Shown here one piece after another: positions 7,671-15,980 of a stretch of 37,757 nt of DNA. The position numbers and the translations under genes were made by a program. A model generated the notes under the pieces. It had not been told where the DNA came from. It saw only the letters and a program-made list of their open reading frames with translations, and did not search any database. The DNA comes from Hyphomicrobiales bacterium (lineage in GTDB: Bacteria; Pseudomonadota; Alphaproteobacteria; Rhizobiales; Methyloligellaceae). Location: the NCBI GenBank assembly GCA_022361215.1, contig JAKSBI010000530.1:1-37757 (forward strand), written 5' to 3'. Position 1 is the stretch's first letter. Every line of letters begins with the position of its first letter.

Positions 7671-8600
7671 ATGCCCTTGATAAAGGCGCCGGCGCGGCCC
7701 TTCAGCGAACCTCTCGTCAGCGCCTTCTGGATGATCGTGTCCTGCGCCCTGCTCGCGGGTCTCAGCGCCCTGGCGCGCTATCTGGCCATCGATGGCATGC
7801 ACCCGTTTCAGATCGTCTTCTTTCGCCTGCTCTTCGGCGTGGTGGCGATCTCGCCGCTCTTGCTGTCGCGCGGCCTCGCCTTCGCCAAGACCAGGCAGCC
7901 CGGGCTCTATCTCATCCGCGTTGCCCTCAGCCTGATCACGATCATGACGTGGTTCTGGGCGCTCGCCTACGCGCCGCTCGGCGAGATCACGGCCATCAGC
8001 TTCCTGGTGCCCATCCTGGCGACCATCGGGGCCGCGCTCTTTCTCGGAGAGACGGTCCGGCTCAGGCGCTGGACGGCCACGCTCGTCGGTTTCGCAGGCG
8101 TGCTGATCATTCTGCGTCCCGGCATGGTCGACATGGGCCTGGGCAAGTGGCTGGCGCTGCTGTCGGCCATCGCCATGGGCATCTCGACCCTCTTCATCAA
8201 GCGCCTGACCCGCTTCGACGACCCGGACAAGATCGTCTTCATCTCCGCCTCGCTGATGACGCCGGTGGCGCTGGTTCCCGCCCTCTTCGTCTGGCAATGG
8301 CCCGAGCCCGCGCAGTGGCCCCTGCTGGCCCTGATGGGTGCGGTGGCCACGCTCGGGCACATCACGCTGACGCGGGCGCTGGCGGCCTCCGACGCCTCCT
8401 ACGTGGTCAGCTTCGATTTCGCCCGGCTGCCCTTCGCCGTGCTCCTAGGCTACGTCCTGTTCGACGAGATCACGGACCTCTGGACCTGGGTCGGCGCCGG
8501 CGTCATCTTCGCCGCGACGGTCTACATCACCCGGCGCGAGGCGCAGCTTAAGCGCGCCGTGGACGGAGCCGGCCGCTCGACCGACACGTCCGGAAGTTAG
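7671..8600 (+). CDS. DMT-superfamily (EamA) transporter
   Basis: A 309-residue inner-membrane protein with about ten hydrophobic helices in two EamA repeats, the family of metabolite and drug exporters. Recognisable pieces are the first repeat's FFRLLFGVVAISPLLL and PLGEITAISFLVPILATIGAALFLGE, and the second repeat's end, with an acidic residue in VLFDEITDLWTWVGAGVIF. The start MPLIKAP is chosen because it follows the IclR stop by 13 bases and gives the usual length. Upstream in-frame codons would overlap iclR. The substrate is unknown. Pairing with a peptide importer and IclR suggests an amino-acid or metabolite overflow exporter, which is inference. Confidence 0.9.
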   Translation: MPLIKAPARPFSEPLVSAFWMIVSCALLAGLSALARYLAIDGMHPFQIVFFRLLFGVVAISPLLLSRGLAFAKTRQPGLYLIRVALSLITIMTWFWALAYAPLGEITAISFLVPILATIGAALFLGETVRLRRWTATLVGFAGVLIILRPGMVDMGLGKWLALLSAIAMGISTLFIKRLTRFDDPDKIVFISASLMTPVALVPALFVWQWPEPAQWPLLALMGAVATLGHITLTRALAASDASYVVSFDFARLPFAVLLGYVLFDEITDLWTWVGAGVIFAATVYITRREAQLKRAVDGAGRSTDTSGS

Positions 8601-8625
8601 CCCTTTCCCGCTTGACGAGCCCCAT

Positions 8626-8677
8626 CCGCTCTTCTCCCGTCATTCCCGCTTTCGCGGGAATGACGGGAGAAGAGCGG
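8626..8677. repeat. Perfect 24-bp inverted repeat (ATTCCCGC/GCGGGAAT type)
   Basis: Arms 8626-8649 and 8654-8677 are perfect reverse complements with a four-base TTTC loop. The core GTCATTCCCGC / GCGGGAATGAC is a dispersed intergenic palindrome common in proteobacterial genomes. It lies between convergent genes (the DMT exporter ends at 8600, the CocE-type gene at 8764), so it may also terminate transcription from both sides. A half copy occurs at 21081-21099. Confidence 0.85.
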
Positions 8678-8763
8678 CGGGGAATGTCGCCAGTCTTTCA
8701 GGCTGACGATGTGAAACATGCCGCTGGCTCCCTTCGATCCGGAAAGACTCGGGCGCCCCGCCC

Positions 8764-10593
8764 TCACCCCACCTCCACGGGCAGCACGATGGCCGACGGC
8801 GTCGCGCCGCCGCGCAGGACCTGCCAATGCCCCGGCCGGCCGTGCGGCCAGCGGGCGAAGTTGTCCCGGTCGGCGCCGGCGAGCGCCAGGCGCAGCCTGT
8901 GCCCGGCCTTGAAGCGCCAGGAGGTCGCCAGCAGGGCGAAGCGCAGCGCGGCGGGCGTGCCCGGCGTCAGCGGCTCGGCATCGGCGCGGGTGTAGCTGCG
9001 CGTGGGCCAGGTGGTGCGGTAGGTCTGCGGGCCCGCCCCCTCCTTGCGGTGCAGCGCCCGCAGCATGCCCTCGGTGACGTAGCGGACCGTGCCGTCCGGC
9101 GCCTCGTCCTCGAGATAGGCGAAGACGCAGGCGTCGCGCCGATCCGAGCTGAGGTGCAACGTCAGAACCGGGTGGCCGGTGAGCGTCAGGTCCTCAGGCA
9201 ACGGCGCGCTGGCGTAGCGCAGGATGCGCCCCTTCCGCGCGCCCCAGTCCGGGTAGTAGTCCTGGATGTCGAGCGCCGCGAGCCGGCCGTAGCGCGTGTC
9301 GCGGCCGGTGCCGACGCCATAGTCCACATGGTAGGCGTCCGCCCCGTCGTCGCCGGGCATCTCCGCCAGCCCGCCCCCATCGCCCAGATAGAAGGTCCGG
9401 CCGTCCTCCGCGGGCGGCCACTGTGCGGCGGTTTTCCAGGCCTCTTCGGCCATGGTGAAATAGTGCACGGGCGCCTCGTCCGCCAGCCCCGTGTCCTCGC
9501 CGCGCACATAGGTGTCGAAGAAGCGCAGGATCTCGCCGTAGATCGGGAACCGCGGTGCGGCCGCGGCCCGGAACGGGCTGCCATTGGTGCGCGCGCCGTG
9601 GTCCCAGGGGCCGAGCAGCAGATGCCGACGCCGGTTCGGCAGGGACAGGAACCGGGCGATCGAGCCGTTCATATAGCTGCCGTCGAACCAGCCCGAGAGC
9701 GACAGCACGGCAAGCTCCGGATCGACGCCGGGTGAATAGGCGTGCGGGCTGAAGCTGTCGCTGGTGAAGCCCGGGTCGTAAGCGAGCGCGTCGCCGCGAA
9801 ACTGAAACTCCCGAATGAAGTCCGGCATAGCGACGTTCGCCGCGTGCTCGGCAATGGCGGCCTCGAGCAGCGCGCCGTCGCTATCCTGGTCCACGGGCGC
9901 CGGCCCGGCGAGATGGGGATCGGCGAAGTAGGCATAGCGCTTCAGATCCGCGCGCCGGTCCAGATCGAGCGCCGTCATCAGCGCGTCGTAGGCGCCGGCC
10001 AGATGCGTCAGCAGAATGCCGCCCGGATAGAAATGGTCCGCATAGGTGTCCCAGACTGCGCTGATCGGCGCGATGGCCTTCAGCGCCGGGTGCCCGGTGC
10101 TGGCGGCGAAGTCGCAGGCCGCGCCCACATAGGAGATGCCGGTGGCGCCGAGCCGGCCGTCGCACCAGTCCTGCACCGCCACCCAGTCCATGACCGCGGC
10201 ATAGTCGTCGCGCTCCACCGGCGAGCGGAACGAATCGCGCGTGCCGAAGGAGGCGCCGGTGCCGCGCACGTCGACGACAACGGTGGCGTAGCCGTAGGGC
10301 ACGAAGGCGTTGCGGTAGGCCCCGGCGCTCGGACAGGCCTCGGTGTCCGCGGGCGCATCGGGCGTCAGCGCGAAGCGGCGGTAGTAGGGCGTGAAGATCA
10401 GGATCGCGGGAAAGCCCGCCTCGGGCCGCTCCCCCTCCGGCAGATGCACGTCCACGGCGAGCCGGACGCCGTCCGGCATCTCCAGGTAGCGCGACATCGG
10501 ACGCGCAGGCACCGTGTGGGTGCGCGGCCGCGCGTCCAGATAGCGCGCGGGATCCACTCGCCACGCAGCAGACTGTCTCGGATCCTCCGTCAT
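8764..10593 (-). CDS. CocE/NonD-family alpha/beta hydrolase (S15-like)
   Basis: A 609-residue serine hydrolase related to cocaine esterase and X-prolyl dipeptidyl peptidase, acting on esters, acylated compounds or peptides of unknown identity. The nucleophile motif is GISYVG with Ser154. The oxyanion/hydrolase segment VVDVRGTGASFG precedes it, and GWFDGSY (Asp) and GPWDHGA (His) supply the rest of the triad. The C-terminal jelly-roll domain runs to the end (LTLHLSSDRRDACVFAYLED through GHRLRLALAG). The start MTEDPRQSAAW is preceded by a very strong ribosome site, GGGGAGGGGG, directly upstream. No signal peptide is visible, so it is probably cytoplasmic. Confidence 0.92.
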   Translation of the reverse strand: MTEDPRQSAAWRVDPARYLDARPRTHTVPARPMSRYLEMPDGVRLAVDVHLPEGERPEAGFPAILIFTPYYRRFALTPDAPADTEACPSAGAYRNAFVPYGYATVVVDVRGTGASFGTRDSFRSPVERDDYAAVMDWVAVQDWCDGRLGATGISYVGAACDFAASTGHPALKAIAPISAVWDTYADHFYPGGILLTHLAGAYDALMTALDLDRRADLKRYAYFADPHLAGPAPVDQDSDGALLEAAIAEHAANVAMPDFIREFQFRGDALAYDPGFTSDSFSPHAYSPGVDPELAVLSLSGWFDGSYMNGSIARFLSLPNRRRHLLLGPWDHGARTNGSPFRAAAAPRFPIYGEILRFFDTYVRGEDTGLADEAPVHYFTMAEEAWKTAAQWPPAEDGRTFYLGDGGGLAEMPGDDGADAYHVDYGVGTGRDTRYGRLAALDIQDYYPDWGARKGRILRYASAPLPEDLTLTGHPVLTLHLSSDRRDACVFAYLEDEAPDGTVRYVTEGMLRALHRKEGAGPQTYRTTWPTRSYTRADAEPLTPGTPAALRFALLATSWRFKAGHRLRLALAGADRDNFARWPHGRPGHWQVLRGGATPSAIVLPVEVG

Positions 10594-10700
10594 GCCCCCT
10601 CCCCGATCGCTTATGTTTGTGTTGGAGGGTGAAGAAATATCACATCGGCGAAGACATGCGATGGGCCACACTTGCGTCATGGCAACGCGCTGGAGCGGAA

Positions 10701-10910
10701 AAGGAGGTAGGGGCGCGGTTCGGGAGCAACCGCGCCCCAGTGGCGGGCCTTTGGGGCGCGACGATCGAAAGGAGGAGGTGCCGATCGCCGCTTCGCAACC
10801 GTGCGGGCTGGTAGGCCCTTCCCGCACGGAGCCGGGAGGTGAGTCCCGGGCTTCCGGCTGAGCCGGTCGGCCCGGTCCCGACGCTCCTCCGCCCACGGGG
10901 TGGTGGGCGA
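10701..10910 (-). ncRNA. Candidate structured RNA or cocE leader with anti-SD-like loop
   Basis: The 10594-11083 gap has no convincing gene but holds serial hairpins: 10710-10720 with 10728-10738 (11 bp perfect), 10758-10767 with 10782-10791 (9 bp plus one mismatch), 10799-10807 with 10821-10829 (9 bp perfect), 10832-10837 with 10844-10849, and 10890-10896 with 10903-10909 (7 bp). On the minus strand the second hairpin's loop reads GCACCTCCTCCTTT, very close to the 16S rRNA 3' end (CACCTCCTTT). Such loops are known from the alphaproteobacterial 'cuckoo'/CcsR small RNAs. The last hairpin on this strand is followed by a short T run. It could instead be the long 5' leader of the CocE-type gene. 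The boundaries are approximate and no named RNA family was matched. Confidence 0.35.
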
Positions 10911-11002
10911 AGACTACTTCGGAGGGGCGGGCAGCTCTGGCGCGCAGTGACCCCTGGCCCGCTGCGCCGCCCTCTCAAACCTTCAGTGGCCGTAGCCGCA
11001 TT

Positions 11003-11021
11003 TAGTTTCGAAGCGAAACTA
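11003..11021. promoter_or_regulatory. Perfect palindrome upstream of marR-like gene, probable operator
   Basis: TAGTTTCG and its exact reverse complement CGAAACTA flank an AAG centre. The size and form fit a MarR-family dimer site. It lies at the expected start region of a possible leftward promoter (11027-11055) and 63 bases before the marR-like start codon. Confidence 0.6.
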
Positions 11022-11026
11022 TCTGC

Positions 11027-11055
11027 AGGCTATCGGCAGCCGGCACCGTTGTCAA
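11027..11055 (-). promoter_or_regulatory. Possible leftward promoter toward the structured region and cocE
   Basis: On the minus strand TTGACA (11050-11055, perfect -35) is followed after 17 bases by TAGCCT (11027-11032, a weak -10). The -35 overlaps that of the rightward marR promoter. Transcription would start near 11020, on the palindrome at 11003-11021. The weak -10 makes this tentative. Confidence 0.35.
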
Positions 11056-11077
11056 GTTAGTTTGCTAACGCTACTAT
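11049..11077 (+). promoter_or_regulatory. Sigma-70 promoter of the marR-like gene with operator in the spacer
   Basis: TTGTCA (11049-11054), a 17-base spacer and TACTAT (11072-11077) match the housekeeping promoter well. The start point should fall about 7 bases after the -10, at or next to the ATG at 11084, so the message would be leaderless. No Shine-Dalgarno sequence is present before the ATG. The spacer contains the inverted repeat GTTAG/CTAAC (11056-11060 and 11065-11069), placed for repression by a MarR dimer. Confidence 0.65.
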
Positions 11078-11083
11078 TTTTCC

Positions 11084-11686
11084 ATGAGTCGACAGACCGA
11101 CAAGCGCGCGACGACGGCTGCGGAGATGGTGTCCCACGTCGCCAGGCTCGCGCAGGGCGATGGGCACGCGCTCGGCCTGACCAGCGCGCAGTGGACGGCG
11201 CTGCGCTATTTCGGCCGCGCCAACCGGTTCTCGCGCACGGTCACCGCCTTCGCCGACTACCACGCCACCACCCGCGGCACCGCGTCCCAGACCGTCAAGA
11301 GTCTCGTGACCCAGGGCTATCTGAGCCGGACGCCCTCTAGCACCGACGGGCGCAGCTCCCGCCTCGACCTGACCGACAAGGGCCGCACGCTGAGAGAGCA
11401 GGATCCGTTCGACGACCTTGTCGGCGCCATCGCCGACCTGCCGCCCGCCCTGCAGAGTCAGCTCACCGCGGCGCTGGCACATGTGATGGGCCGCCTGGCC
11501 GACGACCGCGGCAAGCGGCCGTTCGGAACCTGCACCGCCTGCAGCTATCTCGAGAACTGCATCTGCCGTCAGCCCGACGACCCGGACCATCTCTGCGCCC
11601 TGGTCGGACAGCCCATGGCCGCGACCGAGCTGGACGAGATCTGCATCAACTTCGAGCCCTGCGGAGACAGCTCCGAAAAGCCTTAG
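11084..11686 (+). CDS. MarR-type winged-helix regulator with cysteine-rich C-terminus
   Basis: A 200-residue protein. Residues 1-105 form a MarR-like winged helix (LTSAQWTALRYF, TASQTVKSLVTQGYL as recognition helix, and a wing around STDGRSSRLDLTDKG). The C-terminal 50 residues are unusual for MarR proteins: seven cysteines at 150, 153, 159, 161, 171, 187 and 193, including CTAC and CIC, and ending CINFEPC. This looks like a metal- or iron-sulfur-binding or redox-sensing module. It has its own promoter with operator-like palindromes, so autoregulation is likely. The next gene on the right is convergent and 13 bases away. The sensed signal is unknown. Confidence 0.85.
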   Translation: MSRQTDKRATTAAEMVSHVARLAQGDGHALGLTSAQWTALRYFGRANRFSRTVTAFADYHATTRGTASQTVKSLVTQGYLSRTPSSTDGRSSRLDLTDKGRTLREQDPFDDLVGAIADLPPALQSQLTAALAHVMGRLADDRGKRPFGTCTACSYLENCICRQPDDPDHLCALVGQPMAATELDEICINFEPCGDSSEKP

Positions 11687-11699
11687 GGGCTGTCGAGAT

Positions 11700-12902
11700 T
11701 TACGTTGCAGTGCCGGCGGGCGCCCGGCCATAGCCGTAGCGCGCGATATAGGCGGCCCAGCGCGTCTCGACCAGGGCGCGCTTCTCCGCCGGCAGCTCGT
11801 AGACGTTGGTCCGGTAGTCCTTCATGCGCCCCAGATAGTCGTCCACCGCCGCCTCGGCCCGCGCGAAGGGGCCAAGCCCGAGACCGTCGTAGATCCGGCG
11901 CAGCGCGGCCTTCGGATCGGCCACCAGCTCCTCGTATCTCACCTCGACGAGCTGGCCCTTGGGCACGCGCTCGCGGTCGCGGGCGTAGCTCGCATCCATC
12001 CGCTCGAAGTTGGAGAGCACGAAGTCCTCGAGCCACGGGTCGTCCCGGGCCGGGTTCTGCAGCCCCTGCACCGAGTTCAGCGACTTCCAGAGGCGCATGG
12101 TGGACGGGAACACGGCGAAGGGATCGCGCGAGATGAAGACGAAGCGGGCGTCGGGGAAGAGCTCCAGCATGGTGGCGACGCGGGCGGTGTGGATCGGCGA
12201 CTTCAGTATCAGCCGCTTGCGCTGCCGGAGCGCCACCCGGCGGATGAACCAGAGGAACCCGTCGATCCAGGTCCGTCGCTCGTCGTCGGTCAGCTCGCTC
12301 AGATCGAAATAGCGCCCGTCCACCGGGCCGGCGCGCGGAAAGGCCATGGTCCGGTAGATCGAGCCGAGCCCCAGATTACAGAGCGCGAACTCGTCCTCCT
12401 GCGGGCGGTCGAAGCCCACGGACATGTTGTCCATGGGCCGCTTCTTGGGCAGGAACAGGTCGAACCAGGCGCGCGCCGTGCGTTCGGTCAGCACGAAGTG
12501 GCTGGGGAAGAAACAGGCATAGGTGGTCGGGTATCCGAAGGCGGGGTCGCAGGACAGGAGGTCGTGCAGCAAGGTCGTGCCCGAGCGCCAGTGGCCCAGC
12601 ACGAAGACCGGCGGCTCGTCGAACCGCACCGCCGCGGCCCGGCGTCGGTAGACCGCCTCGGACAGCCAGTAGAGCAGCGTGTTGAGCGGGCTGAACAGCG
12701 TGACGACCAGGATGTTGGGCAGGCAGTTGAGCGTGACCCGGAAGCGGTTGCGCCACATCAGGCCGAGCCAGACGCCCGGCCGCATGCCGTGCCAGAAATA
12801 GAGCAGCCAGCCGCCATAGCGATGAACCTTGAGCGGCCCTTTTCGCTTCTTCTTCTTGCGTTTCCTGGTCGGCGCCACGTCCTCGGACGCGGACTGAGGC
12901 AT
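11700..12902 (-). CDS. PAPS-dependent sulfotransferase family protein
   Basis: A 400-residue protein with the two PAPS-binding motifs of sulfotransferases: the 5'-phosphosulfate loop LGHWRSGTTL at residues 102-111, and the 3'-phosphate motif FVFISRDPFAVFPSTMRLW. LILKSPIHTARV and VRYEELVADP are further family segments. It would transfer sulfate from PAPS to a lipid, glycan or small molecule. The N-terminus is strongly basic (RKRKKKKRKG, residues 13-22) and is followed by a hydrophobic stretch around 58-80, suggesting membrane association. The start MPQSASEDV is chosen over upstream in-frame codons because the region before it has no family similarity. The acceptor is unknown. Confidence 0.85.
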   Translation of the reverse strand: MPQSASEDVAPTRKRKKKKRKGPLKVHRYGGWLLYFWHGMRPGVWLGLMWRNRFRVTLNCLPNILVVTLFSPLNTLLYWLSEAVYRRRAAAVRFDEPPVFVLGHWRSGTTLLHDLLSCDPAFGYPTTYACFFPSHFVLTERTARAWFDLFLPKKRPMDNMSVGFDRPQEDEFALCNLGLGSIYRTMAFPRAGPVDGRYFDLSELTDDERRTWIDGFLWFIRRVALRQRKRLILKSPIHTARVATMLELFPDARFVFISRDPFAVFPSTMRLWKSLNSVQGLQNPARDDPWLEDFVLSNFERMDASYARDRERVPKGQLVEVRYEELVADPKAALRRIYDGLGLGPFARAEAAVDDYLGRMKDYRTNVYELPAEKRALVETRWAAYIARYGYGRAPAGTAT

Positions 12903-13333
12903 TGCCACGTGCTGGGCTCCCCTTGCGCCGCGGACCGTGTCCCCGCGCGGCGTGGCGCCCCTGTTAGACCCAAATGCAGGCAAAGGGAAGCCGCTCGCCT
13001 GTGTCGCGTCATCGCAGAGGGAGGCCACCACTCGCGTTCCCCTCCTCCGTCATTCTCACGAACACGCACTGGTGTCTGGCTTCCTGAAGAACTGTTCCCC
13101 TAGCCTTGACGGGGAGGGGCTAGGGGTGGGGTGACGAATCAAAGAGGAGCAAGCCGATGCCAGGCAAGCTGGCGCAGAGCCAAGACCTGCCATGACGACC
13201 AGCGCGTCGCGCACGCCGCCAACGCCGCGACGTCCCCCTACCCTGCCCTTCGGGCCAGGGAGGGTTGAGATCTGTCGCGACCAAGTGGGATTGACTGACG
13301 GGAGGATGTGGACCTGATCGGCCAGGACCGCCG
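12903..13333. other. Gene-free gap between sulfotransferase and cckA, with palindromic repeats
   Basis: No supported gene is visible. The gap contains a hairpin with perfect arms CCCCTAGCC / GGCTAGGGG (13097-13105 and 13118-13126), and a second hairpin, CCCTGCCC / GGGCCAGGG with one bulge, at 13241-13260. Both resemble dispersed intergenic palindromes of alphaproteobacteria. The second lies about 75 bases past the cckA stop and might end its transcript. Confidence 0.6.
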
Positions 13334-15895
13334 CTAAGCCTTCAGCGTCTCCTTCACCGCCTCGGCCAACTGCTTGAGCGAGAACGGTTTCGGCAGGAAG
13401 ACGAAGCGCTCGTTCTGCTCCAGGTTCTTCTTGAATGCGTCCTCGGCATAGCCCGAGACGAAGATGATCTTGAGGTCCGGCCTGGTTTTCCTCAGCTCGC
13501 GCAGCAGTGTCGGCCCGTCCATCTCCGGCATCACCACGTCGGAGACCACCAGGTCGACCTCGCCTTCGAACTCGCCGAGCACGTCCAGCGCCTCCGCGCC
13601 GGTGGAGGCCTCGATCACGTCGTAGCCGCGCGAGGCCAGCGCCCGCGCCGCGAAGCTGCGCACCGCCTCCTCGTCCTCGACCAGCAGGATCGTGCCGGAC
13701 CCGGTCAGGTCCTGGCTGGCCTCGCCCTCCGCCGCCGCGGACGCCTCGGCCGCGTCGGCGGCCTGCTCCTCGATGTGGCGCGGCAGGAAGATGCGGAAGG
13801 TGGTGCCGGCGCCGATCTCGCTCTCCGGATAGATGAAGCCGCCGGTCTGCTTGACGATGCCGTAGACGGTCGAGAGCCCGAGGCCGGTGCCCTTGCCGAC
13901 CTCCTTGGTTGAGAAGAACGGCTCGAAGATCTTCTCCAGCACATCGGGCGGCATGCCCGTGCCGTTGTCCGTCACCTCGCAGAGCACGTATTCGCCCGGC
14001 TGCATGCCCGGATAGGCGAAGCCCTTGGACTCGCGCTCGCTCACATTGGCCGTGCGGATCGTCAGCTTGCCGCCGTCCGGCATGGCGTCGCGGGCGTTCA
14101 CGGCCAGGTTGACGATCACCTGCTCGAGCTGATGCAGATCGGCCTTCACCAGCCAGAGCTCGCGGCCGGGCTCGACATTGAGCGTTACCTTCTCGCCCAG
14201 CAGGCGGCCGAGCAGGATGCTCAGATCGCCGAGCACGTCGCCGAGCCCGAGCACCTGCGGGCGCAGGGTCTGCTGCCGCGAGAAGGCCAGGAGCTGGCGC
14301 ACCAGCCCCGCCGCCCGGTTGGCGTTCTGCTTGATGTTCATGATGTCCTGGAACGCCGGGTCGGTGGGCCGGTGATTGGCCAAGAGCAGCTCGGAGAAGC
14401 CGATGATGGCGGTCAGGACGTTGTTGAAGTCGTGCGCGATGCCACCGGCGAGCTGGCCCACGGCCTGCATCTTCTGGCTCTGCGCGATCTGCACTTCCAG
14501 CGCGCGCTGCTCGGTGGTGTCGATGGCGTAGACGATGGCGGCCTCGGCCTCGCCCTCGGCCTGCTCGATCGGGCTCATGTAGAAGCGGCCGTTGCGCCCG
14601 CTGCCCTCGCCGAAGCTGGCGTCCACCGCGTCGATGGCGACCTGGCCCGAGCAGGCGGCGTCGAGCGCATGCTCGAAGGCCTCGCGACCGTCCGTATCCA
14701 CGAGACCGCCGATGACGGTCTGACCGATGGAGTATGGCGCGCCGGCCGCGTCGAGCATGCGCGTGAAGGCGGCGTTGGTGCGGCAGATGCGGCCCTCGGC
14801 ATCGACGGTGGCGATGGCGATCGGCGCGGAGTGGAAGAAGCGGGCGAAGCGAACCTCGGCCGCCCGGCCGAGCTCGTCGTCCGCGGAGGCCTCGGACCGG
14901 TTCAGCACCAGCATGTGGGCCTGGTTCGCCTGTCCGTCGATCAGGGGCAGCGCCCGGAACAGAATGCGCACGGGCAGGCTGGTGCCGTCGCTGCGCATCA
15001 GGTCGATGTCGAACTGCCGGGTTCCGGCGCCCACATCGCCGGCGGCGCGCAGCAGCACGGCGGCCGAATCGTCCGACGCGATATCCGACACCCTCATGGC
15101 GCCGGCCGAGGCTTCCGAAAGCTCCAGCTGCAGCCATTGCGCCAGCGTCGCGTTGAGATATTCGATCTGGCCGTCGCGTCCGAACGAGAAGAAGCCCGCC
15201 GGCGCCCCGTCGAGATACTCGATCACCTGCTGCAGCTTCTCGAAGGCGCCCTCCTCCTGGCGCTGCTCGCCGGTGACGTCCTCGAGCTGCCAAACGGTCA
15301 GGGGCGTGCGGCGGCCGACGGAGCCGGCGCTCGGGAACTGGCGCACCGAAATGCGGAACCACTGGGCTATCGGCTGATCCGTATCGGCCGACCGGTTCGG
15401 CCAGCGCACCGAGAAGCTCTCGCTCCAGCTCTGGCCCTGGCGGGCCGCGCGTGACAGGCGATAGATATGCTCGGCCACGCCGCTGTTGCCGGAGAAGGCG
15501 CGCTCCACGGTCGGAATGCCGCCGTCGTCGCGGGCGCCCACGAGCCGCAGATAGGCGTCGTTGGCATAGAGGATGGTGCCGCCGGACGTTGTGACCAGGG
15601 CGCCGTGCGGCAGGTTGTCGACCAGGGCCTTGGTGACGTCGTTGCGGGCGGCCCGCTCGCCGAAATGCAGGATGCCGACCGCGCCGGCGAAGAGCGAGAA
15701 GACGCCGATCACCGACAGCCCCGCCAGGATGGCCAACACGAAGGGCTCCGCGTCCTCGCGGGTGAGCATGGCCAGCGAGACCGCGGCGATGGCCAGTCCG
15801 AGCGCGAGCAGGACGAGCAGGCCGATGCTGCCGTCCCGCGCGGCACGGTCCTCGGCCGGCTCGGCGTATCTCAATGGCGCGTCGACGTCGCTCAT
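13334..15895 (-). CDS. cckA: Cell-cycle hybrid histidine kinase CckA
   Basis: A membrane hybrid kinase of 853 residues that feeds the ChpT-CtrA phosphorelay in alphaproteobacteria. Two membrane helices lie at about residues 25-85 ([40 protein letters not shown]). Three PAS-like segments follow (about 90-205, 215-335 and 350-460), then the CckA-specific H-box [20 protein letters not shown] with His488. The ATPase domain has [24 protein letters not shown] and [18 protein letters not shown]. The C-terminal receiver domain has the phospho-acceptor Asp786 in [16 protein letters not shown] start 42 bases upstream (15937) is the alternative, since neither start has a well-spaced ribosome site. It follows flhB by 85 bases on the same strand. 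Confidence 0.95.
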
Positions 15896-15980
15896 GGGTG
15901 CGAAAATAGCCGATTCGAACTTAACAAGCGCTGACAAATCTCCGCATCCGAGCGGTTTTTACGCGTCGCAGACCCTAGTT

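Follow-up and report, generated by a model that had tools for sequence, protein, structure and literature searches.

Structured mRNA leaders exist that mask their own Shine-Dalgarno site, and an anti-Shine-Dalgarno signature is also carried by several described small RNAs. The ar14/cuckoo RNAs (RF02344; NfeR1, SmelA075) contain three hairpins with CCUCCUCCC in the unpaired part of each, as set out in PMC10746234; the CcsR RNAs of the CIN1 locus are cotranscribed with a DUF1127 gene according to PMC10253847, and the ar8/SisA-D RNAs combine the 10-mer UUUCCUCCCU with a Rho-independent terminator according to PMC12559287. For positions 10701-10910 of the window (the whole stretch of 37,757 nucleotides analysed), a cuckoo/CcsR small RNA or alternatively a leader of the neighbouring cocE-type gene had been proposed, and the leader reading fits this stretch better.

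The marR-cocE locus

Contig C604, which is the window, belongs to a genome of 5.37 Mb in 903 contigs (completeness 99.74, contamination 6.19). The hairpin stretch lies inside the 490-base gap between a divergent cocE/marR pair, and the following genes and elements were recorded.

8764-10593, minus strand: cocE-type hydrolase, ATG at 10593; Pfam Peptidase_S15 and PepX_C
10594-10604, minus strand: cocE ribosome site GGGGAGGGGGC, with the G-rich core GGGGAGGGGG
10700-10708, minus strand: ACCUCCUUU, a second run like the 16S 3' end, just 3' of H6, the last hairpin
10710-10738, minus strand: hairpin H6, an 11-bp perfect G+C-rich stem (10710-10720/10728-10738) with the loop GCUCCCG
10758-10791, minus strand: hairpin H4, 11 pairs (two of them G-U), stem 10791-10781/10768-10758
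10780-10769, minus strand: H4 loop, the 12 nt CACCUCCUCCUU, anti-Shine-Dalgarno-like
10799-10829, minus strand: hairpin H3, a 9-bp perfect stem (10799-10807/10821-10829) with a 13-nt loop
10836-10881, minus strand: branched element H2, with alternative pairings; CACCUCCC is exposed in part
10886-10913, minus strand: hairpin H1, 11 pairs, loop CACCCC; inverted repeat 10887-10896/10903-10912 (90%)
11084-11686, plus strand: marR-type regulator, ATG at 11084; Pfam MarR_2

The cocE homologues align from residue 1 at ATG 10593, and the nearest named ones come from metagenome-assembled genomes labelled Hyphomicrobiales or Hyphomicrobiaceae. A coding reading of the hairpin stretch was rejected, as the minus frame is open across the region (710-aa ORF), yet the homologues start at that ATG, and a 112-aa ORF has no Pfam match. 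In the regulator, the MarR_2 match covers residues 30-91, and a cysteine cluster, CTACSYLENCICRQPDDPDHLC, which is possibly a metal or cluster site, lies C-terminal to the match and outside it.

Hairpins and predicted folds

The inverted repeats described in the original prediction are all present, with two stems of 11 bp and 9 bp at 100%, a third at 90%, and the loop hairpin in addition, while the count of five hairpins stands only if it takes in H2 (about 10836-10881), which is branched and less stable. As stated there, 10768-10781 on the minus strand is GCACCTCCTCCTTT, with the loop proper at 10780-10769; the ACCUCCUUU run at 10708-10700 had been overlooked. H4 formed in each of four minus-strand folds that differed in length, with the CCUCC of its loop unpaired at 0.99-1.0. 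The CCUCC of the 10708-10700 run was unpaired at 0.93-0.98 in short folds and at 0.47-0.64 in leader folds, and both segments were single-stranded in a fold of 100 nt.

The hairpins of 10701-10910 are real and the excess of structure lies on the cocE-sense strand: the minus strand gave a z of -5.27, with none of 200 shuffles folding as well, and the plus strand -2.17, with 5 of 200. For the unit formed by H4 and H6 (10699-10798), the values were -4.38 (0 of 200 shuffles) on the minus strand versus -1.31 on the plus strand. An equal fold excess was reached by 2 of 290 background segments of the window, both at 8581 and representing the two strands of one palindrome. This palindrome (8581-8710) is very strong whichever strand is folded (z -7.9 and -6.9) and is probably a dispersed repeat, since the adjoining frame reading SPVIPAFAGMTGE recurs on contig C275 of the same genome. 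A plus-strand reading of the hairpins, with the GGAGG loop as a ribosome site, was discarded because no start codon lies at a usable distance, and it is also disfavoured by the weak plus-strand fold over 10699-10798.

Excess of anti-Shine-Dalgarno motifs

The motif excess exceeds what composition would give. ACCTCC occurs three times on the minus strand of the core (10693-10930) against 0.185 expected, a count reached by at most 1 of 2000 shuffles, and ACCTCCT occurs twice there against 0.029 expected (1 of 2000 shuffles). Across the whole marR-cocE gap CCTCC was found six times against 1.21 expected (0 of 2000 shuffles), and ACCTCCTTT at 10708-10700 is the sole occurrence in the window. One hairpin in the window combines a stem of 10 or more pairs with ACCTCCTCC in its loop; the mean over 120 window shuffles was 0.008. 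By a looser criterion, the excess of CCTCC-loop hairpins in the window is weak, with two by position (one hairpin counted twice) and a mean of 0.47 and a maximum of 3 in the shuffles. In a genome sample of 367,033 non-N bases (41 contigs including the window; 22 all-N contigs left out), CCTCC lies in the loop of four hairpins with 10 or more pairs, of which H4 alone has ACCTCCTCC. The 14-mer CACCTCCTCCTTTC has one exact match in this genome and one with one mismatch. At 13117 on the minus strand, between the minus-strand ORFs 13334-15937 and 11700-13031, a 9-bp hairpin with the loop CCUCCCCGUCAA was also observed, which may simply be a terminator-like stem.

Candidate promoters and putative operator

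Three candidate control elements lie on the marR side of the gap.

11003-11021, no strand assigned: palindrome TAGTTTCG-AAG-CGAAACTA, putative MarR operator
11027-11055, minus strand: candidate cocE promoter TTGACA-17-TAGCCT, found by eye, with a start near 11020
11049-11077, plus strand: marR promoter TTGTCA-17-TACTAT, from the promoter scan

The marR promoter adjoins its ATG, so the marR mRNA would be leaderless or nearly so, as we infer, and the hairpins would fall outside it. The 11003-11021 palindrome is likely a MarR operator. By eye, similar palindromes of the TAGTTTCGAAAC type and a CGCTACTAT promoter core recur ahead of several of the family's marR paralogues, and these are likely the self-recognised operator of this MarR group.

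On the minus strand, the candidate promoter matches the -10 at 3 of 6 positions, is absent from the promoter scan list, and has a TTGACA that is for the most part the marR -35 read on the other strand. No AT-rich promoter was seen just upstream of H4 on reading the sequence, and the nearest promoter-like site seen for the H4-H6 unit lies in the operator region. The terminator scan listed no minus-strand U-run terminator and did not call UACCUCCUUUU, which follows H6, so transcription would continue into cocE.

Predicted pairing with the cocE ribosome site

Upstream segments complementary to cocE's own ribosome site were found, all as isolated duplexes. The strongest predicted partner is the following segment.

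10920-10932, minus strand: GCCCGCCCCUCCG, duplex with the cocE ribosome site of -19.5 kcal/mol

The H4 loop reached -17.7 kcal/mol on the same site, and 10712-10697 reached -14.3 kcal/mol; these energies are for isolated duplexes, and contact of the H4 loop with the ribosome site would be a pseudoknot, outside the fold model. The 3' end of the 16S rRNA was searched for in this genome and not found, and the tail used for comparison, which we take to be the universal sequence, gave -14.5 kcal/mol, weaker than the H4 loop. Of 4000 random 23-mers, 2 reach -17.7, and among 107 mechanically defined starts in the window the cocE start ranked second for pairing with the loop, behind the start at 13031. 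The H4-cocE duplex requires G-U pairs. The 10920-10932 segment pairs with the ribosome site in the 10593-10930 fold and with upstream sequence in folds that begin at 11021; in the longest fold (the leader and 40 coding bases), the ribosome site is mostly paired with nearer sequence and not with the H4 loop. Of the proposal that the loop pairs with the cocE site and controls translation in cis, the pairing is predicted for the isolated duplex, and translational control may follow from it.

Comparison with known small RNA families

At the gathering cut-off, no Rfam family matched anywhere in the window, and the permissive search gave eight weak matches with a best E of 0.15. On the minus strand, ar14/cuckoo (RF02344) scored 19.9 bits against a cut-off of 58.8 (E 0.15), and CC1840 (RF01521) scored 25.9 bits against 50 (E 0.22). 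A custom covariance model, R2, for which seven ar14-like loci from the window's own bacterial family served as input, gave 9.1 bits at 10794-10728 minus, and no family was returned for 10701-10910 by either route.

The locus is like ar14/cuckoo in its stable hairpin with a CCUCCUCC-type loop, its G+C-rich hairpin on the 3' side and its single-stranded anti-Shine-Dalgarno segments. Unlike ar14, in which the loop ends in CCC and the motif is looped three times, the H4 loop ends in CCUU and there is one CACCUCCUCCUU loop, the H6 loop being GCUCCCG and the extra ACCUCC standing unlooped 3' of H6; the locus also has the tail UACCUCCUUUU in place of a U-run terminator and may form part of an mRNA leader. 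CcsR1-4 of Rhodobacter sphaeroides are likewise hairpin RNAs of anti-Shine-Dalgarno type, whereas here a single unit is found, with no tandem cluster, no terminator and no DUF1127 gene on the contig (PF06568: seven matches in the genome, none on C604). The anti-Shine-Dalgarno signature is shared with ar8/SisA-D and MmgR, but the marR-cocE gap contains neither the 10-mer UUUCCUCCCU nor a Rho-independent terminator on the minus strand. Taken with the scores below cut-off, these differences speak against the cuckoo/CcsR membership of the original prediction. Like leaders that mask a Shine-Dalgarno site, the locus would carry, ahead of its ribosome site on one transcript, a pyrimidine segment complementary to that site, and it differs in having several CCUCC segments, one of them whole in a hairpin loop.

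An ar14-like RNA is present in relatives of the same family, represented by one locus and 16 others.

L045 1501-1591, plus strand, together with 16 further loci in genera g3 and g4: ar14-like sRNA, loop CUCCUCCUCCCUU

At E <= 1e-6, R2 matched 17 of 30 family genomes, all of genera g3 and g4, with scores of 39.8-115.2 bits at the 17 loci, of which five to seven had built the model. Nine pairs with two-sided compensatory change were observed in these loci against 5.4 in shuffles (2 of 500), and the covariation score was 0.238 against 0.124 shuffled (0 of 500), with slid controls at 0.091 or less, in an alignment fitted to the structure of the model. The members inspected carry a U-tailed terminator, and none of the 30 family genomes exceeded the 58.8-bit Rfam cut-off for ar14.

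These relatives give some weight to a trans-acting anti-Shine-Dalgarno sRNA of the cuckoo/ar14/NfeR1 kind, in which H4-H6, alone or cut from a longer minus-strand RNA, would use the H4 loop and the 3' ACCUCCUUUU to bind the ribosome sites of several mRNAs. The two-hairpin layout aligns weakly with CC1840 and ar14, the best two minus-strand Rfam matches, and the 100-nt fold leaves both motif runs unpaired. We nonetheless regard such an RNA as unlikely, given scores far under the Rfam cut-offs and low with R2, the lack of a U-run terminator and of a promoter-like site just upstream, and the restriction of the covarying family RNAs to g3 and g4, the best R2 match in this genome (E 0.236) lying on another contig.

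Homologue searches

DNA matching the gap was found in 1 of 61 relatives, 7 of 397 genomes of the order and 7 of 385 of the class, the own genome being included each time; no genome from its own genus was found. The 12 non-own matches are 29-52 bases long. Open frames were looked at for eight of them (L069, L070, L139-L144; L071-L074 not among them): each falls in a frame that runs from stop to stop over 94-717 codons, 294 or more in seven cases, and these eight were taken for chance matches in coding DNA. Plasmids gave no match to the gap, and viral contigs gave none by exact 18-mer.

A second model, R1, consisting of the single window sequence entered twice, was run on the 397 order genomes. 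At E <= 0.1 it matched 35 of them, own included, with 36 non-own matches; among the 19 loci inspected no convincing homologue was seen. A complete CCUCCUCC loop was seen in the hairpin of L087 alone; at L097 the loop is of a shorter, CUCC-like type and belongs to a terminator hairpin. The hairpin at L087, which precedes a gene that we take to be etfB-like, was rejected as a homologue: among 15 other upstream regions a start was found in 11, and all 11 lack it. In genome G056 (L103 5080-5115), a 12-bp hairpin with the loop ACCUCCUCCC stands just upstream of an etfB-like start; it is absent upstream of the other etfB-like copies inspected, so a conserved role is not needed for a loop of this kind to arise.

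No leader was present in the four closest cocE homologues with full N-terminus and upstream DNA (L023, L024, L025 and L027; 60-65% identity). The closest cocE genes begin 12-27 bases behind another gene (the L027 distance being by eye), presumably a glutathione S-transferase from its reading, and leaderless L024 also has a G-rich site, GGGGGAG. In none of 12 cocE loci tested was marR found, some of these being the same genome twice and some having short upstream sequence. The marR-cocE arrangement with its leader is accordingly known only from this genome, and the leader appears to be lineage-specific.

That conservation was found in no sample, whether of relatives, order or class, would suit a feature of the DNA itself or a neutral one, namely a G+C-rich divergent gap whose palindromes are binding sites or drift and which makes no functional RNA. 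The stems at 10710-10738 and 10799-10829 are perfect palindromes that would serve either strand, and over 10799-10930 the plus strand likewise forms a good fold (z -3.45). The strand asymmetry of the fold excess, strongest over 10699-10798, the G-U pairs in minus-strand H4 and the ACCUCC excess run counter to this explanation, and we consider it rather doubtful. A degenerate version of some described riboswitch, or of another Rfam family, would agree with the folded leader position and nothing further, and the Rfam results above make it very improbable.

A putative leader of cocE

The account we favour, tentatively and short of calling it probable, is a lineage-specific cocE mRNA leader of about 430 nt whose anti-Shine-Dalgarno segments would mask the ribosome site. 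The minus-strand cocE transcript would start inside the operator region between marR and cocE, MarR would set the transcription of both genes, and the 11003-11021 palindrome would serve the cocE side. If the candidate TTGACA-17-TAGCCT promoter works, the leader would carry all the hairpins and display six CCUCC, one group of them whole in the stable H4 loop. The 10932-10920 segment, the H4 loop and the 10708-10700 run would then compete with the ribosome for GGGGAGGGGG, keeping translation of cocE low until the site is released through a protein, a second RNA, temperature or cleavage by RNase.

Such a leader is favoured because the fold excess lies on the cocE-sense strand and CCTCC and ACCTCC are overrepresented; because the H4 loop binds the cocE site better than the 16S tail does, second among the 107 starts; because no U-run terminator intervenes, the nearest promoter-like site is in the operator region and the hairpins fall outside the marR mRNA; and because the four closest cocE homologues do not have one. 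Against it count the weak minus-strand promoter, with a TTGACA that is mostly the marR -35 in reverse complement, and the fact that any anti-Shine-Dalgarno-like loop pairs with any G-rich site, here with G-U pairs and with 13031 ranking higher. The longest fold pairs the ribosome site nearby, leaderless L024 has a G-rich site too, no homologous leader offers covariation, and the isolated etfB-like hairpin of G056 is not kept in other copies. A dual role, in which the MarR-controlled leader masks cocE in cis and a cut near 10700 frees a trans-acting anti-Shine-Dalgarno RNA independent of ar14/cuckoo, seems improbable to us.

At present, the finding amounts to one uncharacterised putative leader in one draft genome, and the case is ordinary in kind. 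If the cocE leader is real, it illustrates how anti-Shine-Dalgarno segments can supply a translational lock to a gene that has recently come to lie next to a MarR regulator, and shows that such loops arise outside the ar14/cuckoo families. The more generally useful result is the covarying ar14-like RNA in 17 of the 30 family genomes, which is missed by the Rfam cut-off.
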